NCBI GenBank assembly: GCA_012512265.1
Contig: JAAZEM010000007.1
Coordinates: 1-64,000, forward strand
DNA length: 64,000 nt
Source of the DNA: Armatimonadota bacterium
Lineage (GTDB): Bacteria; Armatimonadota; JAAZEB01
Reading direction: 5' to 3'
This document shows positions 7,001-42,410 of this stretch, piece after piece. The position numbers and the translations under genes are program-made. How positions within the stretch are numbered: position 1 is the first letter of the stretch; the number at the start of each line of letters is the position of its first letter. The notes under the pieces are model-generated. The model was not told where the DNA came from, did no database searches, and saw nothing but the letters and a program-made list of their open reading frames with translations.

Positions 7001-8368
7001 GTGCGAATAGCAGTAGTAGGCGCCATCCTGCATCAGGTTCACGTCGATGTTGTCGCGCCGGGTCATCCCATCCCACGACTTGCCGCGGGCGTCCGGGGTG
7101 CCCACCACGCGCTGCTGGAGCGTCGGTCCTTTCGGGAAGCCCTTCTCCAGCCTCGGGCGCAGCGATGGCTTATCGAGCGCCTTGCTCGTATAGATCAGGT
7201 CATAACCCTCGACGAAGGGGACCAGGGTGCGCGCCACCTGGTACCATGGCCGGGCGAAGCGCCCGCTGGGGGGGCTACTCGGGTAGTCCCACGACCCGCT
7301 GGTCGATTCCGCGTAGATGCTCGCCAGGGCATCGAGGAAGAAGGCGGCGCGTTCGGCATACCGCTCGTCGCCGGTCAGCGCATAGGCGTGGCCCAGCCGG
7401 TTGATCGCGTTCAGCCACTGCTCGGTGACCCACGCATTCCATGAGCCAACGAAGTAATGGACGCGGCCATCGGGGCCCTTGTAGCCAGAGCCGTCATCGG
7501 GGTGCTTCGCATCCGGCAGGATATGCCCCTGAGTGCACTGGACGGTGCCGGGCCGGTCCCACGAGCAGCGCGCGCCGCCCCACGTGCCCCAGGACGAGCG
7601 GCAGATGGGACAGCCGGTGAAGCCGTAGGCATAGCAGGCGCCGGGCGGCGGCAGGAAGCGGAGCCATTCCTCCTCAGTGCGCTCCAGCCACTTATCGGCA
7701 GCCGCCAGGATCTCCTGCTTTGTCTGACGGCCCCACTCCGTCTGCTCCGCGTTTCGGCGCGCGCGTGCCACGTCCGCGGCGGTCACATACACCGAGGGAT
7801 GCGGCCGACCGCCCAGGACGCGGATCGCTTCCCTTGGTAGCGCGCGCGCGATCGGCTTCGGCTCTCGGATGCGGCGCTCAGGATCGAGGTAAATGCCCAC
7901 TTCATCCACCCCCACATAGGTGCGCTCCTCGTACACCTCCAGAAGCGTGATCTGGACCCACTTTGCCCGGCACGGCTTCTCCAGGCGCGCGTTCACGACA
8001 TCCTGGTCGGGCTGCACGGTGTAGGCACGCTTGGTGCCATCCGAGAGCTCCACCTCGAAACGCTTCCAGCCCGCGTAGAGATTCCGGGCTTGCGTGTGGT
8101 AGATCTGGAGAGAGATCGTGTCGAACTCCTGCGCCTGATCCCACTCGATCCGGATCCATTGCGGGAGCGCCTTGTTCGCGCTCGCCCAATGCGTCGCGCG
8201 GTTCCCGTCGGCCAGGCGCAACACACCGTACTTGCCGTCCGCGGGCGACGCCTGCGACGACGCGGAGACCCGCGCCCTGCTCACCAGGTTCTCCGGGATC
8301 GCCTGCGCGTGGCCAGCCGGAAGTGCAATCCACATCAACAAAGCAATGAGAGAGACGACGAGCGCCAT
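4100..8368 (-). CDS. Large secreted heparinase II/III-like protein with N-terminal discoidin-like domain
   Basis: About 1,422 residues. A signal peptide (MALVVSLIALLMWIALPAG, cleavage near HAQA) is followed by a discoidin-like (F5/8 type C) module with ATHWASANKALPQWIRIEWD. The middle contains a helical toroid-like region and then the heparinase II/III-like beta-sandwich, visible in SLNHGHLDDLGLIYYAKGW and TVALIGEGKDQYLVDLFRVRGG. The C-terminal third is beta-rich. The family degrades acidic polysaccharides by elimination, so a secreted or periplasmic lyase is likely, with unknown substrate. The reading frame extends to 8683, but ATG 8368 has AGGAAAGGG upstream and opens the signal peptide, so the longer start is rejected. 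It is transcribed away from the SWIM operon and toward the FAD oxidoreductase gene. Confidence 0.82.
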   Translation of the reverse strand: MALVVSLIALLMWIALPAGHAQAIPENLVSRARVSASSQASPADGKYGVLRLADGNRATHWASANKALPQWIRIEWDQAQEFDTISLQIYHTQARNLYAGWKRFEVELSDGTKRAYTVQPDQDVVNARLEKPCRAKWVQITLLEVYEERTYVGVDEVGIYLDPERRIREPKPIARALPREAIRVLGGRPHPSVYVTAADVARARRNAEQTEWGRQTKQEILAAADKWLERTEEEWLRFLPPPGACYAYGFTGCPICRSSWGTWGGARCSWDRPGTVQCTQGHILPDAKHPDDGSGYKGPDGRVHYFVGSWNAWVTEQWLNAINRLGHAYALTGDERYAERAAFFLDALASIYAESTSGSWDYPSSPPSGRFARPWYQVARTLVPFVEGYDLIYTSKALDKPSLRPRLEKGFPKGPTLQQRVVGTPDARGKSWDGMTRRDNIDVNLMQDGAYYCYSHSFSGMLHNGHADYMRGALAVGVLLGIPTYVYNAVESPYSIYAMLANNCDRDGRYYETALGYAIHCRDLYLTFTEPLRHWSDERYPKGVNLFANDRFRAFYELPDLTMDIAGHALNYGDCSPDHAFVFSSDDKFSQTDYAFAERLYAGCTGAERERFARLVRYLAGGDVERARAAASNRIWLLYHADPVPGNEKPSLPEDLHRKVFGSWFLGQKGLAILRDGSGAEAQGALVRFGPSLNHGHLDDLGLIYYAKGWQCTYEIGYGLGSTHTQVGWARQTASHCLVTVDEARQSGGSGGSLHLFARLPGIKIVEADSPLSYAANGVTQYRRTVALIGEGKDQYLVDLFRVRGGRQHDYILGSQGQEFEVSGVELGPEEKGSLAGLEHAWGEKLGNDGDIIGMPNKPYWNPPPGNGYGFFYGMRRGRAAGPWWVDWTLGGPNQARFRAHVLPEASAEAIVARAPGLYPRNRNASYLLLRRTGENLQSCFATVLEPYALPMPSGMADYTRLLRSVTANQGAVVPMHSLAALLLRGTAPGDYVECALSVPTAGEYEVQARLYRYSSYGAVRLSVDGTPIGEIYDAVASSLEGPVTVRFGRRRLAAGEHRVKVEITNASPRTLIGIAGLGLVPAVEAERESAKPEPILSGVERLPVAGGLVRASGDESGFFPPAAVRVRRGGRDEFFASQAPLIGRPGEVAPENSFQTPVGPAEWSGGAVHVALRGREVAALALHGTKWLQVGGLRIEPVAAAFYGSVTRADAGGNAVDVSGSLPLAGLEGEGILFMSPRYTRNTAYRIERIEKAGSGSRVHFGTQSILLGQGRIADWVDKQTLTSEIPHDYARSVVGGTNNGFFNGKRVESESGTTTFLKDVEFGTPMRLAVEDASRFEAGSVVYYYDLSVGDTYSIPTAVWLSRTEAGTWRLVSSVDVRLNGSVRYRKPGGAWTVARDGLVPATGMEASLEVEWKPAGAAR

Positions 8369-8531
8369 TTCAGTGACCCTTTCCTTCCACTGGGTCAGGA
8401 ACGAGAGACGCAGAGAGCGCCTGCTTGCCGCCCAATTCCCCAGCGCGCAATGAGAATCCTCTCTCTCCCCAGAAGGAGCGATCACGGCGAGCGCGAATGC
8501 AATGCTGGGAGGCATGGGTGGAGACTCAGCG

Positions 8532-9851
8532 GTGTCTCTGACGTGGACGACGGAACAGGTGCTTGCCCTGGCGCCCGATGCCGCATCCGCCAAGGCGGGC
8601 AGAGAGCTGGCGACGCCCCGCAAATGGGTGAGCCTCGGGCGTGACAGGCAGTCTGCCTGGGGCCTATGCCAGGGGAGCGGCAAGTCCCCCTACCAGACGC
8701 AGATCGATCTGGGAGAGCCTGCATTCCGCTGTAGCTGCCCGAGCCGCAAGTTCCCCTGCAAGCACTCACTCGGTCTCTTTCTTCTTCTGGCCGCCCAACC
8801 CGAGGCTTTCCCCGAGCAGACCCCGCCCGCGTGGGTAACGGAGTGGCTGGAAGCCCGCGCCAAGCGCGCCGAGCAGCGTGCCGCGAAATCCACCCGCAAG
8901 GAGGAGCCCGCCGATCCCGCCGCGCAGGAGCGCCGCGCCGCCCGCAGGGAATCGCGAGTCGCCGCCGGCCTTCAAGAACTCGACCTCTGGCTGTGTGACC
9001 TGGTGCGCTCCGGGCTTGCCTCCGCCCAGGGAAAACCCCCTGCCTTCTGGGAGGGGATCGCCGCACGCCTCGTCGATGCGCAAGCCCCCGGGCTGGCGCG
9101 GCTCGTGCGTGACCTGTCGTCACTCCCCGCGAGTGGCACCGGCTGGCAGGAGCGCCTCCTGGAGCGACTGTCCCTCATCTACCTCTTGATCGAAGGCTAC
9201 CGGCGGATCGACACGCTCCCGGCCGAGACACAGGCGGATCTGCGCTCGCTGATCGGATGGACGCAGAGCCAGGAGACGCTGCTGGCCGAGCCAGGCCTGA
9301 GCGACCACTGGGCCATCCTGGGTCAGCGTATTGAGCAGGAGGAGCATCTCCGCGTTCAGCGCACCTGGCTGCAGGGAACGGAGAGCGGCCGGCCGGCGAT
9401 GATCCTCCACTTCGCGCACGGCACCGCCCCGCTCGATACCAGCCTGGTGCCAGGCACCTGCTTCAACGGCGAGGTCGTCTTCTTCCCAGGCGCCTACCCG
9501 CTGCGCGCCCTGATCAAGAGCCGCGAGGGCGCAGCCGAACCCCTTCAAGCGATGGGCCCCGGCCAGACAATCGCCAGCGCGGCGGAGGCGCGCGCCGCGG
9601 CGCTGGCACGAAACCCGTGGATCTCGCGCTTTCCGGTGCTCCTAGAGACGGTCGTCCCGACGTACCGGGAGGGGACCTGGGTGCTGCGCGACACGGAGGG
9701 GAGCCTGCTCCCACTCCATCCGCGGTTCGACCGAGGCTGGCAGCTCCTCGCCCTGAGCGGCGGGTATCCGCTCGCCCTCTTTGGAGAGTGGGAGGAGGAC
9801 CACTTCCTTCCCCTCAGTGCATGGGCCGATAGCGTGTTTCTGGGACTATGA
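8532..9851 (+). CDS. SWIM zinc finger protein, first gene of a MoxR-VWA operon
   Basis: About 439 residues. Near residue 60 lies FRCSCPSRKFPCKHSLGL, the CxC...CxH SWIM zinc-binding pattern, a module linked to DNA or protein binding. The rest is helical, charged and unassigned. It heads five tightly packed genes (SWIM, DUF5691, MoxR AAA, DUF5682, VWA). A comparable set in Escherichia coli, yehL/yehM/yehP/yehQ, also combines AAA, DUF5682, VWA and SWIM proteins and has no established function. The start is uncertain. GTG 8532 gives the N-terminus VSLTWTTEQVLALAPD, which looks like the natural domain start, with GGAG 9 bases upstream. ATGs at 8502 and 8514 are in frame, but their ribosome-site spacing is poor. 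Confidence 0.82.
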   Translation: MSLTWTTEQVLALAPDAASAKAGRELATPRKWVSLGRDRQSAWGLCQGSGKSPYQTQIDLGEPAFRCSCPSRKFPCKHSLGLFLLLAAQPEAFPEQTPPAWVTEWLEARAKRAEQRAAKSTRKEEPADPAAQERRAARRESRVAAGLQELDLWLCDLVRSGLASAQGKPPAFWEGIAARLVDAQAPGLARLVRDLSSLPASGTGWQERLLERLSLIYLLIEGYRRIDTLPAETQADLRSLIGWTQSQETLLAEPGLSDHWAILGQRIEQEEHLRVQRTWLQGTESGRPAMILHFAHGTAPLDTSLVPGTCFNGEVVFFPGAYPLRALIKSREGAAEPLQAMGPGQTIASAAEARAAALARNPWISRFPVLLETVVPTYREGTWVLRDTEGSLLPLHPRFDRGWQLLALSGGYPLALFGEWEEDHFLPLSAWADSVFLGL

Positions 9852-9920
9852 GGTGCACACGCCCGAACAAGGGCGGAACCGGCGAGGAAGTTCGCTTGAA
9901 GGTGGTATCTGAGGAGGAGC

Positions 9921-11477
9921 ATGGGCGAACAGGGAGCGTCATCTCACACCGCCTGGAACGAGTTGGTCGCCGCAGCTCTCATCGGCGGCGAGCGGGAGGC
10001 CGTCCGGCTGCCGGACGAGGGCCCGCTGGGTGAGGTGCTGAGCCGGCTGGAATGCCCGTCACGCGAGCAGCAGCTTCTGGGTGCGGCGGCGATCCTCTCG
10101 CTCTACCGGCGCGCCGGCGCGCGCCCCGCCGTAGAGACAGCCCCCCCGCCGGAGCCCTCTCCTGCGGAGTCACTCTCGCGCTGCCCCTCATCCGTCGGCC
10201 GCTACCTGGCGGAGATCCTCTCGGGAACGCGCGCGGAGCTCCTGTCGGAGTGGCTGGATGCCGCCGCGGCCGCCGGGATGCGCGCGCCCGAGGAGCTCCT
10301 TCCGGCGCTCCTGGACCTGGGCGCCGCGCGTGAGGGCATTCGCGAGAAGCTCCTGCCCGTCCTGGGAGAGCGGGGAAGATGGCTGGCCCGGCACAACCCG
10401 GACTGGGCCTATGCCCTCGGCCCCGAGGAGGCGATCGATTGGGAAACGGCACCGCGAGTGGCCCGCCTGGCTCTCCTCAAGCGACTTCGCGCCACCGACC
10501 CGGCACGGGCGCGGGAGCTGCTTCAATCCACCTGGGAGCAAGACCCACCCAACGAGCGCGCGGCGTTCATAGAGCACCTCAATGCCGGCCTGAGCATGGA
10601 GGATGAGCCGTTCCTGGAGGCGGCATTGGATGACAAGCGCAAGGAGGTGCGCACTCAGGCCGCCGAGCTGCTCGCCAAGCTGCCCCAATCCCGCCTCAGC
10701 GCGCGCATGCTGGAGCGGGTGCGCCCGCTGCTTAGCTTCACGCCGGGCCAGCCCTCGCGCGTCCTGGCGTTCATGCCGGGCAAGAAGCCTTCGCTGCAAG
10801 TCACCCTCCCCGAGGCGTGCGACCGGGCGATGGCGCGCGACGGGATCGAGGCGAAGCCGCCCCCCGGCATGGGGAAAAAGGCGTTCTGGCTGATGCAGAT
10901 GATCGCCGTAATCCCTCCGGCCACCTGGTGCGAGATGTGGGGCACGCCCCCACAGGTATTGATCGAGGCCGCGAGAGAGACCGAGCATCATCGAGAGCTG
11001 CTGGAGGGCTGGGCGCGCGCCGCCGCGCGGCACCGCGATCGGGAATGGGCCGAGGCGCTTCTCTCCACGTCGATCCCCAGCTTGCCCGAGGGGGTGGCGG
11101 CGGAGCTGGTGGATTCGCTGCCGTCCGAGCGCCGGGAAGCCGCGCTCCTTCCCCACGTCCAGGCCTCTGGGAACCGGATCCCGCTGGTGCCGCTGCTCGC
11201 GCATTGCCAGCACGCCTGGAGCGAGATGTTCACCCGCGCGGTGATCGCCCTCGTGCGAGAACACGTTCGCGGGCCGGGCTATCCCTCTGACTGGCGCATC
11301 CATGACGCGCTGAAGGAGTTCGCCCTCTATGCGGCGCCCGCGCTGGCGGATGAGGCGACACGGACAATCGGCGGGCCGCCAGGGTCGATGCAGCTGCGCT
11401 CTGTAGAGCAGTTCCTGGACCTGCTCCACTTCCGCCGTCAGATGCTGGCGGCCTTCGGTGATAAGGAGACCAGATGA
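9921..11477 (+). CDS. DUF5691 family protein
   Basis: 518 residues, with the family's opening pattern WNELVAAALIGGERE and a later block GRWLARHNPDWAYALG. The sequence is mostly helical, rich in Ala, Leu, Glu and Arg, and suggests a HEAT-like repeat scaffold (for example RKEVRTQAAELLAKLPQSRLS). No catalytic motif, signal peptide or membrane segment is visible. An AGGAGG-type site precedes ATG 9921. The 3' end overlaps the next gene as ATGA, which implies translational coupling to the MoxR ATPase. In the family this protein is found beside SWIM, MoxR and VWA genes, so a structural or adaptor role in that complex is the simplest inference. No biochemical function is known to me. Confidence 0.8.
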   Translation: MGEQGASSHTAWNELVAAALIGGEREAVRLPDEGPLGEVLSRLECPSREQQLLGAAAILSLYRRAGARPAVETAPPPEPSPAESLSRCPSSVGRYLAEILSGTRAELLSEWLDAAAAAGMRAPEELLPALLDLGAAREGIREKLLPVLGERGRWLARHNPDWAYALGPEEAIDWETAPRVARLALLKRLRATDPARARELLQSTWEQDPPNERAAFIEHLNAGLSMEDEPFLEAALDDKRKEVRTQAAELLAKLPQSRLSARMLERVRPLLSFTPGQPSRVLAFMPGKKPSLQVTLPEACDRAMARDGIEAKPPPGMGKKAFWLMQMIAVIPPATWCEMWGTPPQVLIEAARETEHHRELLEGWARAAARHRDREWAEALLSTSIPSLPEGVAAELVDSLPSERREAALLPHVQASGNRIPLVPLLAHCQHAWSEMFTRAVIALVREHVRGPGYPSDWRIHDALKEFALYAAPALADEATRTIGGPPGSMQLRSVEQFLDLLHFRRQMLAAFGDKETR

Positions 11478-12556
11478 TGACAAACATCCTGCGACAGCAC
11501 GCGGAGCAACAGTACGCCGAGGAGCTGGAAGCGCTGGCCGAAGCAGACTCCCGCCCGCGTCCCCCGAACTGGCGGCTATCGCCCTGGGCGGTGGTCACCT
11601 ACCTGCTCGGGGGAAAGCTGGAGAACGGCTTCGCGGTGACGCCGAAGTACATCGGCAACCGCCGCCTGATCGAGATCGCCGTCGCCACCCTGGCGACGGA
11701 TCGGGCACTTCTCTTGCTGGGCGTGCCAGGCACCGCGAAGACGTGGGTCTCCGAGCACATCGCCGCGGCCATCGCGGGCGATTCGACGCTGCTCATTCAG
11801 GGCACGGCGGGCACGAGCGAGGAGCAGATCCGGTATGGCTGGGACTACGCCCGGCTTCTCTCGGAGGGGCCCTCGCGCCGGGCGCTTGTGCCAAGCCCGT
11901 TGATGCGTGCCATGCAGCAGGGGAAGATCGCCCGTGTCGAGGAGTTGACGCGCATCCCCGCCGACGTGCAAGACACGCTGATCACCATCCTCTCGGAGAA
12001 GACACTCCCGATCCCGGAGCTGGGCGAGGAGGAGCAGGCGGTGAAGGGGTTCAACGTCATCGCCACGGCGAACAACCGCGACCGGGGCGTCAATGAGCTC
12101 TCCAGCGCCCTGAAGCGCCGCTTCAACACCGTGGTCCTCCCGGTGCCGGAGAGCGCCGATGAAGAGGTGGAGATCGTCCAGCGCCGCGTCGAGAGCCTGG
12201 GCCGCGCCCTCGAGCTGCCCGCGCCGCCTCCGGGCGTGCAGGAGATCCGCCGGATCGTCACCATCTTCCGGGAGCTGCGGAACGGCGTCACCGCCGATGG
12301 CAAGACGAAGGTGAAATCGCCCAGCGGCACGCTGAGCACCGCCGAGGCGATCTCCGTGGTCAGCAACGGTCTGGCGCTCGCGGCGCACTTCGGCGATGGC
12401 ACCCTCCGTGCTGCCGACATGGCCGCCGGCCTGATCGGCGCCGTCGTCAAGGACCCGGTCCAGGATCGCGTCGTCTGGCAGGAGTATCTGGAGACGGTCG
12501 TCAAGGAGCGCGATGGCTGGAAGGATCTCTATCGGGCGTGTCGGGATGTCTCGTGA
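11474..12556 (+). CDS. MoxR-type AAA ATPase
   Basis: 360 residues. Walker A reads GVPGTAKTW and Walker B is in ARVEELTRIP. A sensor-like ATANNRDRG and the arginine-finger region SALKRRFNTVVLP follow. These are hallmarks of MoxR ATPases, chaperone-like enzymes that usually act with a VWA-domain partner on metal insertion, complex assembly or stress responses. The partner here is the VWA gene 2.5 kb downstream in the same operon. The start codon overlaps the stop of the DUF5691 gene by four bases and is preceded by AAGGAG. The protein resembles E. coli YehL in size and context. Confidence 0.88.
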   Translation: MMTNILRQHAEQQYAEELEALAEADSRPRPPNWRLSPWAVVTYLLGGKLENGFAVTPKYIGNRRLIEIAVATLATDRALLLLGVPGTAKTWVSEHIAAAIAGDSTLLIQGTAGTSEEQIRYGWDYARLLSEGPSRRALVPSPLMRAMQQGKIARVEELTRIPADVQDTLITILSEKTLPIPELGEEEQAVKGFNVIATANNRDRGVNELSSALKRRFNTVVLPVPESADEEVEIVQRRVESLGRALELPAPPPGVQEIRRIVTIFRELRNGVTADGKTKVKSPSGTLSTAEAISVVSNGLALAAHFGDGTLRAADMAAGLIGAVVKDPVQDRVVWQEYLETVVKERDGWKDLYRACRDVS

Positions 12557-12656
12557 TGCCGGGCGCCACCCGCGCGCGGCGCTCCCAGCGGGGCGCCGCA
12601 CGGCCGGGCCCACTTCAGCAGCGCGTTACGAATGACGCTTGATGGAGGAGATGCCA

Positions 12657-14960
12657 GTGTCCGAACCAGTCACCCACGTGTTCGGCATACGCCACCACGG
12701 CCCCGGGTCGGCGCGGAGCGTCTTGAAGGCGCTGGAGGCACTGCAGCCGGATATCATCCTGGTCGAGGGGCCACCGGATGCCGAGGAGGTGCTGCCGCTC
12801 CTGACCCACGCCGAGATGGAGCCGCCGGTGGCACTTCTCCTCTACGTGCCGGAGGAGCCCAGCCGCTCCGTATCGTATCCCTTTGCCCTCTTCTCGCCCG
12901 AGTGGCAGGCGCTCCGGTATGGCCTCACACGCGGCATTCCCACGCGCTTTATCGACCTGCCGCAGGCGCACCAGCTCGCGATGCGGGAGGATGCGGGGGC
13001 TGCCGGATCCGAAGCGGTCGAGGATGAGAGCGATCCGGTAGCCCCGCCCGAGCCCGCGGAGGTGGTGCGCCAGGATCCGTTGGGCTGGCTGGCAGCGGCG
13101 GCAGGCTATAGTGACGGCGAGCGCTGGTGGGAACACATGGTGGAGCAGCGCCTGGATGGCGATGACCTCTTTGCCGGCATCTGCGAGGCGATGGCGGCGC
13201 TGCGCGCAGAGATGCCGCGAGAGGAGGACCCGCTGGAGGAGCGGCGGGAAGCCTACATGCGCCGGTGCATCCGCCAGGCACGGAAGGAAGGTTACGAGCG
13301 CCTCGCCGTGGTGTGCGGCGCCTGGCACGCGCCGGCGCTCGCGGAGATGCCACCGGCCTCCCACGACGCGAAGCTGCTCACCGGCCTCCCCAAGGTGAAG
13401 GTGAGCGCGACCTGGATCCCCTGGACCTACGGCCGGCTCGCCCGTTCCAGCGGCTACGGGGCCGGGATCGAATCGCCCGGGTGGTATCACCACCTCTGGA
13501 GCGATTCCGACCGCGTCGCCATTCGCTGGATGACGTGCGTGGCCAGCCTGATGCGCGCGCACGATCTGGATGCTTCTGCCGCGCACGTCATCGAGGCGGT
13601 GCGCCTGGCCGAGTCGCTCGCGGCTTTGCGCGACCGCCCTTTGCCCGGCCTGGATGAGCTGAACGAGGCGGTGCGAGCCGTCTTCTGCTTCGATAGCGAC
13701 CTCCCGATGCGCCTGATCGAGGAGCAGCTCATCGTCGGCGAAAGGCTGGGCAAGGTGCCGGAGGTCACGCCCCAGGTGCCCCTCCAACAGGACCTGGCAC
13801 GGCTGCAAAAACGCCTGAGCCTGCCCCCCGAGGCCACCCAGAAGCAGCTCGACCTCGACCTGCGCGAGCCCCTCGGGCTGGCACGCAGCCATCTGCTCCA
13901 CCGGCTCGCCCTCCTCGGCATCCCCTGGGGCCAGCCCGAGCGCGTCACCGGAAAGCAGAGCACGTTCCACGAGATCTGGACCCTCCAGTGGCATCCGGAG
14001 TTTGCCGTGGCGCTCATCGAGGCGGGCGTCTGGGGCAACACCGTGGCCGCTGCCGCTGCCGCGAAGGCGCGGGATCTGGCCCAGCGCGCCCCAGATCTCC
14101 CCGCGCTCACGGAGCTTGTGGACCGCGTGCTCCTAGCCGATCTACCGGACGCGATCGACCCCCTGATGGCTCTCCTTCAGGAGCGGACGGCGCTGACCGG
14201 CGATACGGCCCACCTGATGGATGCGCTCCCCCCGCTGGCCAGGGTGCTCCGCTATGGGAACGTGCGCCGCACCGACGCCACGATGGTCGGTGGCGTCGTG
14301 AATGGCATCGTGGCGCGCATCTGCGTTGGATTGCCCAACGCCTGCTCCTCGCTCGATGACGAGGCTGCCGCGGCGATGTACGACCGGCTTGTGAACACCG
14401 ACGACGCGATCCGCCTGTTGGAGAATCCCGAGCACGTGTCGGAGTGGCACGAGGTCCTTGCTCGCCTCGCCGACCGGTCTGGGCTGCATGGCCTAATCGC
14501 TGGCCGGAGCTGCCGGCTTCTACAGAGCGCCGGCGTCTTTGATCCGGAGACGTGCGCTCGGCACATGAGCCGGGCACTCTCGCGGGCCTCCGAGCCGGCG
14601 CAGGCTGCCGCATGGCTCGAAGGCTTCCTCAAGGGGAGTGGCCTGCTTCTGCTGCACGATAAGGAGCTCTGGCAGGTGCTTGATACCTGGCTGACCGAGC
14701 TCTCCGCAGAGAGCTTCGCGGCGGTGCTCCCGCTCTTGCGGCGGACCTTTGCAACCTTCCCTGCCCCGGAGCGGCGGCAGATGGGGGAGCGCGTTCGCCT
14801 GGGAAAGGCGGCAGGCTCCCAGGTCCCCGGCATGGACGCGGGCTTCGATGCCGAGCGCGCGGTGTCCGTCCTGCCGCTCGCCGCCCGGCTTCTGGGCATC
14901 GACTGGCCGCCCGCCGGCGCCGCCGCGAGGAATGCTGGAGACCGCGGGGAAGCGTCGTGA
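12657..14960 (+). CDS. DUF5682 family protein of the MoxR-VWA operon
   Basis: About 767 residues. The N-terminus has VFGIRHHGPGSARSVLKAL followed by DIILVEGPPDAEEVLPLL. Near residue 220 comes VVCGAWHAPAL. Histidine-bearing motifs in these positions resemble the EreA/ChaN/TraB-TIKI hydrolase-like fold; that comparison is my inference, not a search result. The remaining two thirds are helical. The start is set at GTG 12657, eight bases after GGAGG; the ATG at 12651 abuts that site. Its last bases overlap the short Thg1-like frame as GTGA. E. coli YehM is the counterpart in the yeh set. Confidence 0.8.
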   Translation: MSEPVTHVFGIRHHGPGSARSVLKALEALQPDIILVEGPPDAEEVLPLLTHAEMEPPVALLLYVPEEPSRSVSYPFALFSPEWQALRYGLTRGIPTRFIDLPQAHQLAMREDAGAAGSEAVEDESDPVAPPEPAEVVRQDPLGWLAAAAGYSDGERWWEHMVEQRLDGDDLFAGICEAMAALRAEMPREEDPLEERREAYMRRCIRQARKEGYERLAVVCGAWHAPALAEMPPASHDAKLLTGLPKVKVSATWIPWTYGRLARSSGYGAGIESPGWYHHLWSDSDRVAIRWMTCVASLMRAHDLDASAAHVIEAVRLAESLAALRDRPLPGLDELNEAVRAVFCFDSDLPMRLIEEQLIVGERLGKVPEVTPQVPLQQDLARLQKRLSLPPEATQKQLDLDLREPLGLARSHLLHRLALLGIPWGQPERVTGKQSTFHEIWTLQWHPEFAVALIEAGVWGNTVAAAAAAKARDLAQRAPDLPALTELVDRVLLADLPDAIDPLMALLQERTALTGDTAHLMDALPPLARVLRYGNVRRTDATMVGGVVNGIVARICVGLPNACSSLDDEAAAAMYDRLVNTDDAIRLLENPEHVSEWHEVLARLADRSGLHGLIAGRSCRLLQSAGVFDPETCARHMSRALSRASEPAQAAAWLEGFLKGSGLLLLHDKELWQVLDTWLTELSAESFAAVLPLLRRTFATFPAPERRQMGERVRLGKAAGSQVPGMDAGFDAERAVSVLPLAARLLGIDWPPAGAAARNAGDRGEAS

Positions 14961-15052
14961 AGTTTGGTGACTTCGAGAGCCGGGCGCGCGCGCTGGAGCC
15001 TCTCCACCCGCCGCCCGGCGTCTGGATTGGCTTGCGCCCGGGAGGCGGGTAG
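14957..15052 (+). pseudogene. 31-codon stump resembling the N-terminus of Thg1 (tRNA-His guanylyltransferase)
   Basis: A GTG overlapping the DUF5682 stop (GTGA) opens a frame reading VKFGDFESRARALEPLHPPP, then GVWIGLRPGGG and a stop. The opening matches the shape of bacterial Thg1-like N-termini as I know them: Met-Lys/Arg-Phe, an acidic-Arg segment, Glu, His, then Pro-Gly and a hydrophobic run leading to the catalytic Leu-Asp-Gly-Arg. It stops exactly where that catalytic motif should begin (Leu-Arg-Pro-Gly-Gly-Gly). The rest of the gene is missing; the VWA ribosome site begins within 20 bases. The best reading is a remnant left by an internal deletion. It may still be translated for coupling. 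Confidence 0.5.
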
Positions 15053-15081
15053 CGGGAGCAGAGATTGGAGTGGTCGGCGAG

Positions 15082-16227
15082 ATGGCGATAACACCGGACG
15101 AGCGTCTGCGGCGGTGGCGGCTGGTCCTCGGGTCGGGCCAGGCAGATGGGGTGGGCATGGAGCTGACAGGTGTGGATCGGGCAATCGACCAGGCGCTGGA
15201 AGCCCTGTACGACTCTGACCGCAGTGGTGGGTTGGGCAGCTCCGCGCCGAGTGCGGCCCGGTGGCTGGGCGATATCCGCACCTACTTCCCCAAGTCGGTG
15301 GTGCGCGTGATGCAACGCGATGCCCTCGAGCGCCTGAACCTCCGGCAGATGCTCCTGGAGCCGGAGCTGCTGGAAGCAGTGGAGGCCGATGTGCACCTCG
15401 TCTCCACCCTCCTCTCGCTGAAGAGCGTGCTCCCGGGCAAGACGAAGGAGACCGCGCGCATCGTGGTGCGCCGTGTCGTCGAGGATCTGGAACGCCGCCT
15501 GGCAGCGCCTACGCGGCAGGCGATCCAGGGCAGCCTGAATCGCGCCGCACGCAATCGCCGCCCGCGGTATTCGGAGATGGACTGGCACCGCACCATCCGC
15601 GCTAACCTGAAGCACTACCAGCCGGAGTACCGCACCATCATCCCCGAGACGCGCATCGGCTACGGACGGAAGCGTTCCCTGCTGCGCGAGATCATCCTCT
15701 GCGTGGATCAGAGCGGCTCGATGGCCGCCTCGGTCGTCTACGCGGGCGTCTTCGGGGCGGTCCTCGCCTCGCTGCCGGCGGTCAAGACGCACTTTGTCGC
15801 TTTCGATACGGCGGTCGTCGATCTCACCGAAGAGCTGCATGACCCGGTAGAGCTCCTCTTTGGCACCCAGCTGGGTGGGGGCACCGATATCAACCGCGCG
15901 CTCGCCTATTGCCAGGGCCTGATCACCCGCCCCATGGAGACAATCCTCATCCTCCTGAGCGATCTCTACGAGGGGGGCGACGAGGAGGAGATGCTGAAGC
16001 GCGCCGCGGCCCTTGTCAACTCCGGCACCCAGGTGATTGCGCTTCTTGCCCTGAGCGATGACGGCCGGCCCGCGTTCCACCACGATATCGCGTCGGCGAT
16101 GGCCGGGATGGGGATCCCGGCGTTTGCCTGCACTCCCGATCTCTTCCCGGAATTGATGGCCGCCGCGATCAACCGCCAGGAGATCGGGCAGTGGGCCGCC
16201 AAGCATGATATCGTGACTGCTCAGTAG
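15082..16227 (+). CDS. VWA domain protein, partner of the MoxR ATPase
   Basis: About 381 residues. The second half is a von Willebrand factor A domain with the metal-ion site motif DQSGSM (DxSxS), the conserved threonine in GGGTDIN and the late aspartate in LLSDLYEGG. The N-terminal half is helical and includes RRPRYSEMDWHRTIRANLKHY, a segment commonly seen in VWA proteins paired with MoxR ATPases. No signal peptide or membrane helix is visible, so it is likely cytoplasmic. ATG 15082 is preferred, with GGAG 11 bases upstream; GTG 15070 is an alternative. It is the last clear member of the operon and corresponds to E. coli YehP. Confidence 0.87.
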   Translation: MAITPDERLRRWRLVLGSGQADGVGMELTGVDRAIDQALEALYDSDRSGGLGSSAPSAARWLGDIRTYFPKSVVRVMQRDALERLNLRQMLLEPELLEAVEADVHLVSTLLSLKSVLPGKTKETARIVVRRVVEDLERRLAAPTRQAIQGSLNRAARNRRPRYSEMDWHRTIRANLKHYQPEYRTIIPETRIGYGRKRSLLREIILCVDQSGSMAASVVYAGVFGAVLASLPAVKTHFVAFDTAVVDLTEELHDPVELLFGTQLGGGTDINRALAYCQGLITRPMETILILLSDLYEGGDEEEMLKRAAALVNSGTQVIALLALSDDGRPAFHHDIASAMAGMGIPAFACTPDLFPELMAAAINRQEIGQWAAKHDIVTAQ

Positions 16228-16266
16228 GAGCGTTGGAAACACCATTGTTTTGGAGAGATGCGCATC

Positions 16267-16914
16267 ATGGCAGATTGGAGATGGGCGAGAGGGTTGCTCG
16301 CGGGGGCCGTGGCCGTGTTGGCACCCCTTCTCCTGGGGTGTCATGACTCCAGTAATAACCGGGTGGAGGAGACACACTCCGGCCCCAGGCAGGTGGAGTT
16401 GCAGACGCACCTCGAATGGTCGGAAGGGAGCACGCAGCTCTACGCGATCATCGGCGCGGGCTGGCCGCCCTCCGGTCTCCAGCGAACCTCGTGGCAGGAA
16501 GGCACGAACTACTCCATCGAGCCCCGCGTGAGCATCAAGAGCGTCCGGCTTCTGGATGACGGCATGACCCTCTGCCTCACGACGGCTGAGCAGGCACCGG
16601 GCACGCGCTATCAGGTGCGCTATACCCCGAAGGTGTCGTTCCCCGCGCCACCCCTGGAAGGCTTTCCACAGAACCCGGTGCTGACCGCCGTTGCCGTCGA
16701 TGCCACGCACGTGGTCGTCGTACCCGACACGCACCATCAGGAGCGCGTGGACTGGGCGGATGCGAGTAGCTACCGCTTTGAGCCTCCACTCGCCGTTCAC
16801 TCGGCCCAGGTCAGCGAGGATGGCCGGCTGGTGCGCCTGACAACGGCCGAGCAAGAGGCATCCGCCAGCTACAAGCTGCGCGTGGGTGAGATCGCAACGC
16901 CCGTCGTCCGGTAG
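16267..16914 (+). CDS. Lipoprotein with two SbsA-like Ig repeats
   Basis: About 215 residues. A signal sequence ends in the lipobox LLLGC, so the mature protein is probably lipid-anchored. Two homologous repeats follow, around SIKSVRLLDDGMTLCLTTAEQ and AVHSAQVSEDGRLVRLTTAEQ, each ending in a YxLRV-type strand. This is the pattern of SbsA-like Ig domains (Big_5). ATG 16267 is preferred because GGAGAG lies 9 bases upstream; it touches the alternative ATG at 16258. It starts 39 bases after the VWA stop on the same strand and could be the tail of that operon, but nothing in the sequence proves a functional tie. Confidence 0.72.
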   Translation: MADWRWARGLLAGAVAVLAPLLLGCHDSSNNRVEETHSGPRQVELQTHLEWSEGSTQLYAIIGAGWPPSGLQRTSWQEGTNYSIEPRVSIKSVRLLDDGMTLCLTTAEQAPGTRYQVRYTPKVSFPAPPLEGFPQNPVLTAVAVDATHVVVVPDTHHQERVDWADASSYRFEPPLAVHSAQVSEDGRLVRLTTAEQEASASYKLRVGEIATPVVR

Positions 16915-17212
16915 GCGCGAGCGCGGCAGGCCGGACCCCTTCCGAAATCGCGCGGGCGCGCCGCGTCTTTAGGGAGCAGGCAACGCTTCCCGTGTTACAT
17001 CCGCCGCGGTTTGGTTGTCAAAGGGAGATGGCAAGGCGGTGGCATCACGCGCGGGAGACGTAGGGCACACCGCGAGCCACCTGCCCGAGCTATGAGATTG
17101 AACCGGAACCCGTCCACACGCGGCTCTTCGCGCCACGCTCTTCCCCCTTTCTGGCGTGACTCGGCGGAACCGCGCCCGCGCGGCGGGTTACCAGGCCGAA
17201 AGGAATCACTCG
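16915..17212. other. Intergenic stretch, no gene seen
   Basis: About 300 bases between the lipoprotein gene and the Gfo/Idh/MocA gene. I see no convincing ORF, RNA or promoter. The only clear element is the AAAGGA ribosome site just before ATG 17213. Confidence 0.6.
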
Positions 17213-18226
17213 ATGAGCACCATCGGATTCGGCGTGATTGGGTGTGGCGGTATCAGCAACGTGCACCTCACCGCCCTCTCCAAGCGTGACGATGCTCGCA
17301 TCGTCTGCGTCTCAGACATCAACCCGGATGCCGCTCGCGGCCAGGCGGAGAAGTACGGCGCCGGCAAGTGGGTAACCGACGCCAACGAGCTCCTGGCGAT
17401 GCCGGAGGTCAACGCCGTCGTCGTCTGTACGCCCACCTTCCTCCATCCGGAGTATGTGATTGCCGCGGCCAAGGCGGGCAAGCACGTCCTCTGCGAGAAG
17501 CCGATTGCCATGACGCTGGAGGATGCCGACCGGATGATCGCCGCGTGCGACGAGGCGGGGGTCTTCTTCATGATCGCGTTCGTCCGCCGCTTCTGCAACG
17601 AGTGGCTGAAGCTGCGCGAGATCATCCAGAGCGGCGTTCTCGGCCGGCCGGTCCTCTGGCGCGGCGTCTCCGGGAGCTCTGGCCCGCGCAGCCCCTGGTT
17701 CCTCGATGCCCAGAAGGGCGGCGGCCCCTTCATCGATGGCTGCGTCCACGACTGGGACTTCGCGCGCTTCACCTTCGGCGAGCCAGAGGTGGTTCTTGCC
17801 TCCGTCCGGCACATGAAGGAGGGCGACTCGACCTCCCTCGATACCGGAAGCGCCATTGTCCGCTTCCAATCCGGGGATGAGCTGATGCGCAGCTGGACCT
17901 GGGGCCTCCCCGGCACCGCGTGCCGCACGCAAAGCCTCTCCGATGTCATCGGGCCCAAGGGGGCTCTGCGCTTCCCAGGCGCTCCGGCACAAGGCTCGAA
18001 GACCAACAGCTTCATCCTCACTGATGGCGAAGGCGTCGAGCACGCGCTGGAGTACGAGCACACCATCGGCCAGGAGTGGTTTGACGCCCAAATGGACCAC
18101 TTCGTCACCTGCATCAAGGAGGGCCGGCAGCCCTCGGTCACCGGCTTGGATGGCAAGAAGGCGCTCGCCATTGCCCTGGCGGTGCTCGAGGCGGGGCGCA
18201 CCCACAAGCCGGTTGTGCTCGGCTGA
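17213..18226 (+). CDS. Gfo/Idh/MocA family NAD(P)-dependent oxidoreductase
   Basis: 337 residues. The N-terminal Rossmann domain starts GFGVIGCGGISNVHL, and the family motif CEKPIA lies near residue 100. The C-terminal alpha/beta domain carries the catalytic-type GGGPFIDGCVHDWDFARF. Members oxidise or reduce sugars, inositols and their derivatives using NAD(P). The context gives no substrate. The frame continues upstream to 17156, but ATG 17213 directly precedes the nucleotide-binding motif and has an AAAGGA site. A strong hairpin terminator follows, so it is probably monocistronic. Confidence 0.9.
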   Translation: MSTIGFGVIGCGGISNVHLTALSKRDDARIVCVSDINPDAARGQAEKYGAGKWVTDANELLAMPEVNAVVVCTPTFLHPEYVIAAAKAGKHVLCEKPIAMTLEDADRMIAACDEAGVFFMIAFVRRFCNEWLKLREIIQSGVLGRPVLWRGVSGSSGPRSPWFLDAQKGGGPFIDGCVHDWDFARFTFGEPEVVLASVRHMKEGDSTSLDTGSAIVRFQSGDELMRSWTWGLPGTACRTQSLSDVIGPKGALRFPGAPAQGSKTNSFILTDGEGVEHALEYEHTIGQEWFDAQMDHFVTCIKEGRQPSVTGLDGKKALAIALAVLEAGRTHKPVVLG

Positions 18227-35495: not shown

Positions 35496-38291
35496 TCACC
35501 GCACCCGGATGGGGGCCCTGGCCGTCTCGTGCGCGTTCGAGATCTCCAGCCCGAAGAGACGAGGCGCCACCCGCTTCCGAATCTCCTCGGCAATCAGCAC
35601 GGTGGAGGAGACCAGCACCACGATCCCCCACTGGCCCAGGGTGAGCGGCACTGTCCGGAGTGCGGTCTGGAGGAATCCGATATGAATCGCGGCGACGAGC
35701 AGCGCCGCCGAGAAGAGGACTCCCCAGGTGACCCACCGGTTGCTCCAGAGGCCGATGCGGAAGACCGAATCGGTGAGCGAGCGCGTGTTGTAGATGTTGA
35801 ACAGCTGGAAGACGGACATCGTCGCGAACGCCACGGTGCGCGCCAGCGCCAGGTCACCGTTGCGCCACGCCCAAATGAAGGTGCCGATGGTACCCGCCGC
35901 CATGAAGAGAGCGACGAAGGCGACGCGAAAGACGAGCGCGCGGGAGATAATGGGCGCGTTCGTCGGGCGCGGTGGCTCATCGAGGACGCGACCATGCGGC
36001 GGCTCCTGGCTCAGCGCGACGGTTGGCGCGCCATCGGTGACCAGGTTGATCCAGAGGAGCTGCAGAGGAAGCAGCGGCAATGGGTAGCCGGCAATGACCG
36101 CCGCCATCAGCGTCAGGATCTCACCGCTGTTGGTGCCGAGAAGATAGACGACGACGCGGCGGATGTTGGCGAAGATCGATCGCCCTTCCTCCACCGCTCC
36201 GACGATGGAGGCGAAGTTGTCATCGGTGAGGATCATCTCGCTCGCCTCTTTGGCCACGTCGGTGCCGGTGATCCCCATCGCCACGCCAATATCGGCGCGT
36301 TTGAGCGCGGGCGCGTCGTTCACCCCATCGCCCGTCATCGCGACGATATGCCCGCGCGCCTGCAACGCCTTTACGATGCGCAGCTTATGCCCAGGCTCGG
36401 CGCGCGCGCACGCCGCGATTCGCTCGACACGCGCCTCCAGCTCCTCATCTGTCATCGCCTCGATCTCTTTGCCGTCGATCACGTCGCGGTCGCCATGCAA
36501 GAGATCCAGCTGCGCAGCAATCGCGCGCGCGGTGATCCGGTGATCGCCCGTGATCATCATCACCTGGATGCCCGCCCGGCGCGCCGTCTCGATGGAGCGT
36601 CTCGCCTCGGGCCGCGGCGGGTCAATCATTCCGGCGAGACCGAGGAACACCAGGCCCTCATCCAGCAGCTCAGGCGTGATCTTCTCTACTTCCGGGGGGA
36701 GGCGGCGGCAGGCGAAGCCGAGCACGCGGAGCGCCTCTGCAGCGAGGGCGTGGTTGGCCTCCTGAACGCGCGTGCGTGCATCGGGCGAGAGACTCCGCGC
36801 CGGCAGCCTCTCGTCCCCAGGCGCCTGAAGCTCGCCGCTCGGGCACGCTTCTCCCTCGCCCTCATCACTCCAGGCGATGCACGCGCTCATTTCAAGCACG
36901 CGCTCGGGTGCGCCCTTCACGAAGAGCCAGCGCTCGTCTTCCGGCCCGGCGTGAAGCGTGGCCATGTAGCGCGTGTCCGGATCGAACGGGATCTCATCCA
37001 GGCGCGGGTAGCGCTCCGACAGCTCCGCCCGGGTGAGACCGGCCTTGGCCGCGGCGACGAGGAGGGCGCCCTCCGTCGGGTCGCCGGCGATGGACCACCG
37101 GCCCTCCGCCTCGCGCAGGCAGGCGTCGTTGCAAAGCGCCCCCGCCAGGAGAAGGAGCATCAAGCCGGAGTCCTCGGCGGGCTCCAGCCTCTCGCCTTCC
37201 TGGCGGAATCCCCCCTCGGGCGCATACCCTTCTCCTTCAACGCGGATCTCCTCGTCACGCAGCCAGATGGCGCGCACGGTCATCTCGTTCTTGGTCAGCG
37301 TCCCCGTCTTGTCGGTGCAGATGAAGGTGGCGGAGCCCAACGTCTCGACGGCGGGGAGTTTCCGGATGATCGCATGACGGCGCACCATCCGCTGGACGCC
37401 CACGGCGAGGACGACGGTGACGACCGCCGGAAGACCCTCGGGGATGAAGGAGACGGCGGCAGCCACGCCCATGAAGAAGAGCTCCTGCAGCGGGAGGTCG
37501 TGGGTCAGGCCCACGATGACGAGAAGCACCGCCAAGAGGATCGCGGCGATGCCGAGGCGCCCCCCCAGCCCGGCCAGCTTCCGCTGTAGGGGCGTCTGCA
37601 TTCCGCCCCCGCTCTCCACCTCCCGGGCGATGGCGCCCATCTCCGTCTCCATGCCCGTCGCGGTCACCACGGCGCGACCCCGGCCGGTGACCACAGTGGT
37701 GCCGAGGAAGAGCATATTCTCGCGCTCGCCGAGGGAAAGATCCGGCGCCATCGCGTGCGTGTGCTTGCGAGTCGGGGTCGATTCCCCGGTGAGCGCGGCC
37801 TCCTCCGATTGCAGGTTGGCGGCTTCCAGAACGCGGGCATCGGCCGGCACGCGGTCACCCGCTGCGATCGCGAGGATATCGCCAGGCACAAGCTGCTCCG
37901 CGTCGATTTCGACCGGCTCGCCACCGCGGATGACCGTCGCCTTCGGGGCCGCCAGGGCGCGCAGCGCCTCCAGAGCGCGTTCTGCCCGATACTCCTGGAA
38001 AAAGCCGATGAGGGCGTTCAGGATGACGATGGCGAGAATCACCCAGCCGTCGAGGCCATGCTCGGCTGCGAAGGAGATGCCGGCTGCAATCAGGAGGATG
38101 TAGATCAACGGACTGGTGAACTGCGCCAGAAAGATGCGCGCTGGCGACACCCGCCGGCCCGCGCGGATCGTATTCGGCCCGTGGCGCTCGCGTCGCCGCT
38201 CCGCCTCGGCCTCATCGAGGCCCTCGGGGCGAGATTCCAGGCGCTGGAGTACTTCTTCCGGGGTCAACGCATGCCAGGGTGTTCCGTCCAT
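35496..38291 (-). CDS. Cation-transporting P-type ATPase, P2A calcium type
   Basis: 931 residues. Actuator motif LTGES, phosphorylation motif DKTGTLT and hinge MTGDGVNDAPALKRADIG are intact. Membrane motifs match calcium pumps of the SERCA/PMR1 class: PEGLP in M4, TNSGEIL in M5, and NLVTDGAPTVAL in M6. These carry the Glu, Asn/Glu and Asn/Thr/Asp ligands known in SERCA. It should export calcium (or manganese) at the expense of ATP. ATG 38291 has AGGAG upstream; the frame's 75-codon extension to 38516 is rejected. 246 bases separate it from the PAP2 gene upstream in transcription order. Confidence 0.9.
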   Translation of the reverse strand: MDGTPWHALTPEEVLQRLESRPEGLDEAEAERRRERHGPNTIRAGRRVSPARIFLAQFTSPLIYILLIAAGISFAAEHGLDGWVILAIVILNALIGFFQEYRAERALEALRALAAPKATVIRGGEPVEIDAEQLVPGDILAIAAGDRVPADARVLEAANLQSEEAALTGESTPTRKHTHAMAPDLSLGERENMLFLGTTVVTGRGRAVVTATGMETEMGAIAREVESGGGMQTPLQRKLAGLGGRLGIAAILLAVLLVIVGLTHDLPLQELFFMGVAAAVSFIPEGLPAVVTVVLAVGVQRMVRRHAIIRKLPAVETLGSATFICTDKTGTLTKNEMTVRAIWLRDEEIRVEGEGYAPEGGFRQEGERLEPAEDSGLMLLLLAGALCNDACLREAEGRWSIAGDPTEGALLVAAAKAGLTRAELSERYPRLDEIPFDPDTRYMATLHAGPEDERWLFVKGAPERVLEMSACIAWSDEGEGEACPSGELQAPGDERLPARSLSPDARTRVQEANHALAAEALRVLGFACRRLPPEVEKITPELLDEGLVFLGLAGMIDPPRPEARRSIETARRAGIQVMMITGDHRITARAIAAQLDLLHGDRDVIDGKEIEAMTDEELEARVERIAACARAEPGHKLRIVKALQARGHIVAMTGDGVNDAPALKRADIGVAMGITGTDVAKEASEMILTDDNFASIVGAVEEGRSIFANIRRVVVYLLGTNSGEILTLMAAVIAGYPLPLLPLQLLWINLVTDGAPTVALSQEPPHGRVLDEPPRPTNAPIISRALVFRVAFVALFMAAGTIGTFIWAWRNGDLALARTVAFATMSVFQLFNIYNTRSLTDSVFRIGLWSNRWVTWGVLFSAALLVAAIHIGFLQTALRTVPLTLGQWGIVVLVSSTVLIAEEIRKRVAPRLFGLEISNAHETARAPIRVR

Positions 38292-38537
38292 GGTCTCCTC
38301 TTCGCGTTCCCTGCGAACCTCTGGGAGGCGCTTCTCCCTTTTACCCGGCGAGGCCCATGCGGAAACAGCCCTCCCACGCGCTCCGGGCGCGCGGCGCACT
38401 GGCAGAGCCATTTCAGGAGAAGCCTGGGGGCGCGCCCGGCAGGCCCGGGCGTTCCGGCATGGCTTCCGGGGCTGGCAAGGTCGCGCGCCCTCGAGGGGCA
38501 AAGCGCCCGCCCGCACCTGCTAATACCGGAATTCGTT

Positions 38538-39185
38538 TCAGGTGGCGGGGCTTCTCCCGCGGGCAGGAGCTGGAACCGCTTCTGAACTCTTCGCGCTTTC
38601 GGTGCCCGCGGCATCGTCCCCGTGAGGGGGATGCGTCTCCGGCACGGCGGGCACCTCGCGCAGGCAGATGATGGCGGTGACGATGCCGATCACGGCGCCG
38701 GCAAGGACATCGCCCGGGAAGTGCACGCCCACGTAGACGCGCGAGAGGCCGACGCCGGCGGCAAGCACGAAGACAAGCGCCGCCCAGCGGCGGTAGTAGC
38801 GACTGATCACCACCGCGAGGGCAAAGGAGGTGGTGGTATGCCCCGAGGGGAAGGAGTGGTAGCGCAACACCTCGCCGACGAAGTGGCAGCCGTCCACCAC
38901 CAGCGCGGGGCGGACGCGGTCGACGCCGAGCTTCAGGATCTGCGCGGCGACGCCGCCGGCGAGGAAGGCGATAAAGCAGACGCGGGCCGCGTGGCGCCCG
39001 GCCGGCCCGCCTAGGAGGTAGAGGAGCGCGAGCAGCCCGACCTGGATGGATCCCAGGCCAAGCTGGGTGAGCACGAGCATCACGAGATCGAGCGCCGGGT
39101 GGGCCCACGCGCCGTTGATCGACCGGAAGAGAGCGATATCGAGCGCCTGAAGCGATTGTCCGGCACGGATGAGCGCGTCTACCAT
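38538..39185 (-). CDS. PAP2-family membrane phosphatase
   Basis: 215 residues with about five membrane helices. The three PAP2 motifs are KLGVDRVRP, FPSGHTTT and SRVYVGVHFPGDV, giving the catalytic histidines and arginine. Such enzymes remove phosphate from phosphatidic acid or undecaprenyl diphosphate. It starts one base after the stop of the LPG-synthase-like gene, the third gene of a membrane operon. A role in recycling the polyprenyl carrier used by the operon's glycosyltransferase is a reasonable inference. The C-terminal 35 residues are polar and disordered. Confidence 0.88.
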   Translation of the reverse strand: MVDALIRAGQSLQALDIALFRSINGAWAHPALDLVMLVLTQLGLGSIQVGLLALLYLLGGPAGRHAARVCFIAFLAGGVAAQILKLGVDRVRPALVVDGCHFVGEVLRYHSFPSGHTTTSFALAVVISRYYRRWAALVFVLAAGVGLSRVYVGVHFPGDVLAGAVIGIVTAIICLREVPAVPETHPPHGDDAAGTESAKSSEAVPAPARGRSPAT

Positions 39186-39186
39186 C

Positions 39187-40140
39187 TCAACGGCCCTCCT
39201 CGCCCTCCGCCGGCGCGCGCCGCGTGAAGAATGTCATCTGCCCGGGCGCCAGCAGGGAGAAGACGAGCCCCCCAATGGCACCACTGACAAGGATGAGCGC
39301 CAGCCAGCTGAGCGCGAACGCCAGTCCGGATTCCTGCGGGACCTGCGCCAGGCCCAGGAAGTAGACGTAAGCGGCATCGCGCGTGCCCAGGCCGTTGATG
39401 GAGATTGGCGCCATCGCCACAATCGCAACCAACGTGGACGCCAGCACGTACGTGCCCAAGGGAATCTCGAGCCCCAGCGCCCGGCCCAGAAGAACGTGAA
39501 CCCCCACCGCCAGCACCTGGAACAGCAGCGATACCACCGCGACAGGTATCCAGAGCGCAGGCGGCCGGCAGACAAGGATCGCCCCGTGCAACGGCTTGCC
39601 TAGTCTTCGGAAGAGATCAGGGGCCGCGAGCGCCGCGATGCTCCCCGCCAGAGCGAGCGCCGCGCAAGCCAGCGTGCCCAGGCGGATCCAGGCGGGCAGC
39701 CCGGGCTCCATCAGCACGCCGACGCCTGCCAGGAGAAGCAGGGCGATGAAGCCCGAGCCGCGATCCCCCAGCACGGAGATCACGCCTCGGCCCAGGGAGC
39801 CATCCGGCGGGGCAATCGCGGCCGCGCGGCCAATATCGCCGCCCACGGTGGTTGGGAGGAAGAGGTTGGCGAACATTCCCCCGCAGTAGTAGGCGAGGAG
39901 CGAACGATAAGGCCGGCGCATCCCCAGCGCGCCAGCGAGGAGGCCCCACTTCCAGGCGCACACCGCCTGGCCTACCAGGTAGAGCGCGACCGCCGCGATC
40001 CAGAGCGGGGCATCGAGCGAGCGCAGCGCGGCGGCGACCTCTCCCCCCTGGAGCTGGCTGAAGAGGTACGCGAGCACCGCCGCTCCCACCGCGCCCCGCA
40101 CCAGGAACACGAGCGACCGGCGCCCTCGCTTTGCCGTCAT
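39187..40140 (-). CDS. Lysylphosphatidylglycerol-synthase-TM (flippase-like) membrane protein
   Basis: 317 residues with about eight predicted membrane helices and the family markers FLPTTVGGDIGRA and PISINGLGTRDAAYVYFL. This domain (PF03706, UPF0104) forms the membrane half of MprF, and stand-alone copies are thought to move or bind lipid-linked substrates. The start codon overlaps the stop of the GT39 gene as ATGA, implying coupling. Function is inferred only at the level of lipid or glycolipid handling. Confidence 0.87.
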   Translation of the reverse strand: MTAKRGRRSLVFLVRGAVGAAVLAYLFSQLQGGEVAAALRSLDAPLWIAAVALYLVGQAVCAWKWGLLAGALGMRRPYRSLLAYYCGGMFANLFLPTTVGGDIGRAAAIAPPDGSLGRGVISVLGDRGSGFIALLLLAGVGVLMEPGLPAWIRLGTLACAALALAGSIAALAAPDLFRRLGKPLHGAILVCRPPALWIPVAVVSLLFQVLAVGVHVLLGRALGLEIPLGTYVLASTLVAIVAMAPISINGLGTRDAAYVYFLGLAQVPQESGLAFALSWLALILVSGAIGGLVFSLLAPGQMTFFTRRAPAEGEEGR

Positions 40141-41765: not shown

Positions 41766-41952
41766 CTGGATGCGATGGGACGGGAAGCGACGGGGGCGGA
41801 ACGAGTCCGGCCCGGGGTGCAGGCAGCCGCCTTGGAGGTCGTTCTCGCCACCGGTCTCAAACCCCTTTCTAGAGCGCCGGCGCTCGGGTGAGGAACACGG
41901 CCGTCCCATTATAACAAACGGTTTAGAGAGGCGCAAGAAGAGTCGCGGGCAC

Positions 41953-42203
41953 CTGGGATTCCGAGATAGAGGGCGAACACGGATGGAGAGGGCCGCCCGC
42001 GCGCGGAGCTCGAAGCTCCGCGCTGCTTCCCAGCAAAGCCCTTCGGGCTTCCCCTCCCAGCCACCGCAGTTTTGAGACATCTGGGAGTATCCCCAACCCA
42101 GCTCGGCAGGGCTTCGCTCACAAGCAGCGCGGGGATTTACTGCCACGCGCGACGGGGTGCGCGCTACCTCCGAGGCTTCGGATTCCTTATATCGGAATCC
42201 CAG
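41953..42203. repeat. Palindromic intergenic repeat, family 2, copy B, with 16-bp terminal inverted repeats
   Basis: CTGGGATTCCGAGATA (41953-41968) and TATATCGGAATCCCAG (42188-42203) are inverted repeats matching at 15 of 16 bases. Inside lie the hairpin GCGGAGCTCGAAGCTCCGC (42003-42021), shared with copy C, and ACAAGCAGCGCGGGGATTTA (42120-42139), shared with copy A. The architecture resembles a small non-autonomous mobile element, with no coding capacity. Confidence 0.65.
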
Positions 42204-42255: not shown

Positions 42256-42410
42256 GGGGGATGATCCCATGCTCCGGGAGAACGGCAGGCAGCCAGAGGT
42301 GCCTGGAGGCCATCGGTTGGCGAGAGGGACGGAACGTCCGGAAGACGCGCCCCGCTGGCCGCCGCAGGTCGTTATTGCCTCCCCGAGCCGCGTCCCATCG
42401 ATTGGAACTC

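Follow-up and report, generated by a model that had tools for sequence, protein, structure and literature searches.

The question raised by this locus is whether five adjacent genes form a single system and, if so, what that system does in the cell. In the window, as we call the whole 64,000-nucleotide stretch of Armatimonadota DNA that was analysed, five co-directional ORFs on the plus strand span positions 8502-16227. Their identities, proposed in an earlier note as SWIM, DUF5691, MoxR AAA, DUF5682 and VWA proteins, were confirmed by Pfam profiles. The first ORF (8502-9851) codes for a SWIM zinc-finger protein of 449 aa when read from ATG 8502, with an alternative start at GTG 8532 (Pfam SWIM, 5.8e-5), and is followed by a DUF5691 protein (9921-11477, 518 aa, 7.7e-144), a MoxR AAA+ ATPase of the YehL subfamily (11474-12556, 360 aa, AAA_5/MoxR 1.7e-39), a DUF5682 protein (12657-14960, 767 aa, 1.2e-292) and a CoxE-type VWA partner (15070-16227, 385 aa, VWA_CoxE 3.5e-52). 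The DUF5682 ORF opens at 12639, but translation probably begins at GTG 12657, just past a GGAGGAG sequence. That the locus belongs to the YehL-type MoxR-VWA group, with all five genes intact, is nearly certain. No fitting functional name above cut-off was obtained for the five proteins from NCBIfam, PADLOC or PHROGs. Rfam gave no match in 7500-17500; in 8300-16500 no sigma-70-type promoter was matched and the two terminator-like matches were not above chance. Elsewhere in the window, an 804-aa ORF (42261-44675, plus strand) shows by eye two radical-SAM modules in tandem that resemble MqnC/MqnE/CofH, and perhaps codes for fused futalosine-pathway enzymes, and a strong AT skew (0.22-0.27) runs over the minus-strand genes of 38000-42000.

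The genes had been described as joined by ATGA and GTGA overlaps. The ATGA at 11474, which joins DUF5691 and MoxR, is real. At 14957 the GTGA starts an ORF of 31 codons in a reading frame of its own (14957-15052, plus strand), the wrong frame for VWA, whose start lies at 15070 or later, 109 nt past the DUF5682 stop. SWIM and DUF5691 are separated by 69 nt, and MoxR and DUF5682 by about 95 nt or more. Since DUF5682 and VWA overlap in most relatives (spacing of zero or less in 50 of 73), there is a small insert at this point of the window locus. The 31-codon ORF has no Pfam or PDB match; it is possibly a gene remnant and probably lies outside the five-gene system. It was the top match of the window to a small profile of Thg1 N-termini, at E=0.05, and VKFGDFESRARALEPLH bears a weak likeness to the bacterial Thg1-like N-terminus VKFEELEGRFRELESLH found at another locus (L101). 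These resemblances, together with one flanking gene that carries an RNA 3'-phosphate cyclase domain, would fit an RNA-repair or tRNA-linked system in which the SWIM protein binds nucleic acid and a Thg1-like gene has been lost from the operon. We regard this as very improbable, and rejected the link: the match is marginal, Thg1 is absent from the window's genome and unlinked to DUF5682 in the phylum sample, none of the five genes occurs in 15 short Thg1 loci from the phylum, and the literature places Thg1 next to polynucleotide kinase and MACRO proteins (PMC2904730).

That the five genes constitute one unit is indicated by their neighbourhood in other genomes. A scan of GTDB genome contigs with the DUF5682 alignment gave 582 relatives, and the analysis continued with the 80 best. 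Among these 80, which are skewed to near kin of the query and under-sample E. coli-type loci, the exact order SWIM-DUF5691-MoxR-DUF5682-VWA on one strand was found in 61 of the 67 loci with sufficient flanking DNA. The shared order is far above chance and is seen across more than 10 phyla, the best 80 of the 582 including Cyanobacteria, Chloroflexota, Planctomycetota, Bacteroidota, Pseudomonadota, Actinomycetota, Acidobacteriota, Verrucomicrobiota, Deinococcota, Armatimonadota and others. The median gaps between neighbours along the operon are -1, 11, 16 and -4 nt. A second, independent sample of 291 genomes from the window's phylum had DUF5682 in 35 and DUF5691, over its cut-off, in 22, and each of these 22 also contains DUF5682 (hypergeometric P 2.3e-24). 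The genes thus co-occur in other genomes, as the earlier note had expected of a genuine system. Between all five families, distances correlate pair by pair (r=0.66-0.90, null maxima not above 0.16, no control gene included), which fits joint inheritance, although shared descent alone would also yield such values. Natural fusions suggest that the products belong to one complex: SWIM and DUF5691 form a single annotated CDS in Hymenobacter, and DUF5682 and VWA are joined in a 1255-aa protein adjoining MoxR on a Streptomyces atratus plasmid (locus L151, 6950-10717). MoxR and DUF5682 are the most constant pair, being present in one lineage (L112) where VWA is not detectable.

The residues on which ATPase, MIDAS and SWIM functions would depend are intact in the predicted proteins. 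In MoxR, the Walker A motif GVPGTAKT at 11720 retains its lysine, the Walker B region (11933-11944) reads R-V-E-E, with an invariant E-E where D-E is usual, and sensor N200 and arginines R215/R216 are present; the closest solved relatives are midasin and NorQ. In the VWA protein, for which a PDB sequence search gave nothing useful, the MIDAS residues D213-S215-S217 (15706), T272 and D298 are kept in 74-78 of 78 homologues. The MoxR-VWA pair has retained its catalytic and metal-site residues in both members. Such pairs are known as remodelling chaperones, each MoxR protein serving particular complexes, in most cases together with a VWA protein (PMC3893208). The SWIM motif, CxCPSRKxPCKH at codons 8730-8765, has C77, C79, C86 and H88 kept in 99-100% of 69 homologues. 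The AlphaFold model of DUF5691 (pLDDT 91.7) is all-helical, and its Foldseek matches are HEAT/ARM repeat proteins, in agreement with weak HEAT profile matches; as modelled, the protein is a HEAT/ARM-like α-solenoid.

The protein on which the interpretation turns is DUF5682. Its AlphaFold model (pLDDT 90.5) comprises an N-terminal alpha/beta domain (residues 1 to about 260) and a long, mostly helical C-terminal region. A G10xxH13 motif follows strand 1, E37 (12765) follows strand 2 and D100 (12954) a later strand, while R197 and E198 (13245) lie in the helix preceding the strand that ends in G221xxH224 (13317-13328). All 64 sequences share R12, E37, D100, R197, E198, G221 and H224, 63 have H13 and H14, and the collinear set GxxH, E, R, GxxH (G10/H13, E37, R197, G221/H224) is present in 62-64. 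Enzymes of the TIKI superfamily have a conserved site of two His and two Glu in a parallel beta-sheet core (PMC6254334). The earlier note had judged DUF5682 hydrolase-like and had proposed a comparison of its predicted structure with the EreA, ChaN and TraB folds. The outcome was mixed: a Marseillevirus TraB protein was the top match in a viral structure library (Foldseek probability 1.00, E 0.012), but the PDB fold search returned helical repeat proteins only, none at E<0.001, and a PDB sequence search found no matching structure. In profile alignments (hhalign) with TraB, both GxxH blocks were matched up at P 0.033, a score reached by 3 of 300 column shuffles. With ChaN, an earlier alignment of 7 sequences also matched both blocks (P 0.0039), and the cleaned set of 19 sequences matched the last one alone (P 0.0085, a score reached by 0 of 300 shuffles); with EreA P was 0.40. 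The probability was below 10% in every DUF5682 comparison, which is below significance by sequence, while the positive controls gave 2.5e-7 (Ere-ChaN), 9e-4 (ChaN-TraB) and 0.041 (Ere-TraB). The alignments to ChaN and TraB are collinear but weak. We consider it probable, and not established, that the N-terminal domain is a hydrolase of the TIKI/TraB/EreA/ChaN type; the motif layout and the viral structural match argue for it, and the analyses did not show DUF5682 to be an unrelated structural domain. The window's own genome also contains, on another contig (C143, 3431-4477, locus L125), an erythromycin-esterase-like protein (PF05139, 2.5e-125).

The resemblance to the E. coli yehLMPQ operon, also pointed out before, was borne out: YehL (3.5e-134, MoxR family), YehM (7e-170) and YehP (1.7e-137) match the family profiles, and MoxR (42% identity to YehL by BLAST, 39% over the alignment), DUF5682 (28%) and VWA stand in the same relative order, accompanied by a SWIM protein. 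The E. coli operon differs in that it reads MoxR-DUF5682-VWA-SWIM, with the SWIM protein YehQ last, lacks DUF5691 and adjoins an upstream DUF4132 gene (yehI). YehQ and a similar protein at another locus (L118) contain two CxC...CxH motifs and escape detection with the five-gene form's SWIM profile; beyond the motif, no likeness between YehQ and the window's SWIM protein was detectable. An Iodobacter plasmid locus resembles the E. coli form, with an adjoining DUF4132 gene, and on an Allorhizobium plasmid DUF4132 sits between DUF5682 and VWA. In the E. coli-type form, a DUF4132 protein may replace DUF5691 as scaffold. In Chitinophagaceae (L049, L043, L062, L050, L056, L094), related proteins of 974-987 aa directly follow the VWA gene of the five-gene operon and cluster with E. 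coli YehI; the one from L049 has DUF4132 and HEAT domains. As a general partner DUF4132 was rejected, its association with DUF5682 in the window's phylum being absent (6 of 38 observed, 4.6 expected, P 0.30). The window carries the YehL-type MoxR-VWA system in its five-gene form, as judged by profile matches and sequence identity; a YehL-like MoxR, an adjacent VWA with intact MIDAS and neighbouring DUF5682 (YehM) and SWIM proteins are all present. The earlier description of the system as undescribed holds in part: YehL is already a named MoxR subfamily (PMC3893208), but our literature search found no paper mentioning DUF5682 or DUF5691.

A role in biological conflict had also been proposed, and the distribution of the system speaks against it. 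In such an anti-phage or NTP-driven effector system, DUF5682 would be a toxic effector set free by MoxR-VWA. MoxR-vWA ternary conflict systems do exist (PMC7159879), and the window locus shares their MoxR plus vWA core. Its MoxR matches their bpMoxR (23.8 bits) below the cut-off of 27, and none of the domains that accompany this core, VMAP, iSTAND, FtsH, the effector-associated domain (EAD) and the variable effector, was found by Pfam in the five proteins. The patchy presence in the phylum and the existence of some plasmid copies would suit defence, but such copies are rare (36 of 72,556 records), and the DUF5682 tree mostly follows phylum, requiring 19 phylum changes against a possible minimum of 12 and a mean of 51.8 in shuffled trees. 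Inheritance is mainly vertical, with some transfer. PADLOC matches of the locus were sub-significant (best E 0.0019) and no model fits; no PADLOC model was matched by more than two of 94 flanking proteins, so that no defence island was seen. Two PHROGs match DUF5682 and VWA, and no relative was found among 2.9 million viral contigs. Phage carriage was rejected, the sole 'phage' record (MT835988) being an unverified faecal scaffold, also with MoxR and VWA. Finally, yehLMPQ is present in 5331 of 5426 complete E. coli genomes (98%). The E. coli operon is conserved yet not essential, since a genome-reduced strain without the yehLMPQ region is viable (PMC10652928) and yehL/yehM have been lost in some Shigella sonnei lineages (PMC12795559). 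On balance we consider a defence function quite unlikely. The flanking genes are heterogeneous and point to no substrate. At a Variovorax locus (OK212, L068, 5700-9956), an HSP90-like ATPase and a TPR-type protein are inserted between MoxR and DUF5682, a hint of chaperone biology. Taken together, these findings favour a remodelling or processing role of the system over defence.

The best reading, which we hold to be moderately probable, is that of an ATP-driven remodelling motor coupled to a DUF5682 hydrolase and serving an ancient, non-essential function of the cell. MoxR (YehL) would assemble into an AAA+ ring powered by ATP, to which the VWA protein would feed a target bound through its metal-dependent MIDAS, and the SWIM protein and the DUF5691 α-solenoid would choose or scaffold the target. 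The GxxH/E/R/GxxH site of DUF5682 might then cut or process the substrate presented by the motor, or DUF5682 might be switched on by it. Complex formation, hydrolysis, coupling and substrate class are what we infer here, and the role would most likely be a housekeeping or stress function, such as protein maturation or quality control, of mainly vertical descent. A different use of the same motor, possible although distinctly less likely, is a metallocofactor- or enzyme-maturation chaperone like CoxD/CoxE, NorQ/NorD or CbbQ/CbbO, in which DUF5682 would bind a metal, haem or the client and would not be a hydrolase. The CoxE family membership of the VWA protein, midasin and NorQ as nearest solved relatives, the maturation of dedicated complexes by MoxR proteins (PMC3893208) and the Pfam name of the ChaN branch as haem-binding (Cofac_haem_bdg) are in line with such a chaperone. 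The near invariance of the hydrolase-type residues of DUF5682 argues against it, and nothing ties a client metalloenzyme to the operon: a molybdopterin domain was found in only one of the 94 flanking proteins.

The motor-hydrolase reading also admits a stronger and rather speculative version, namely that the five proteins make up a new ATP-driven protease, with a MoxR-VWA motor, selection by SWIM and solenoid and a TraB/TIKI-like hydrolase, distributed over more than 10 phyla and in a related form in almost all E. coli. If this were so, it would represent a new architecture for energy-dependent proteolysis or peptide processing. If the hydrolase assignment is right, YehL would turn from a functionless MoxR subfamily into a testable motor-hydrolase system, in E. 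coli K-12 as well; the MoxR-VWA chaperones would be extended from remodelling to cutting; and DUF5682, DUF5691 and perhaps DUF4132 would acquire a first function in many bacteria.

Compared with known members of the TIKI/TraB/EreA/ChaN superfamily, DUF5682 is alike in having a GxxH past strand 1, a glutamate past strand 2 and an arginine in the helix before the last GxxH strand, and differs in its approximately 500 additional, mostly helical residues and in being encoded within an AAA+ operon. With RavA-ViaA, CbbQ-CbbO, NorQ-NorD and CoxD-CoxE the window locus shares an AAA+ MoxR protein and a VWA co-factor with intact MIDAS. Those systems, however, mostly consist of two partners with a known client, whereas the system described here has three further, co-inherited members: one hydrolase-like, one a solenoid and one a SWIM protein.
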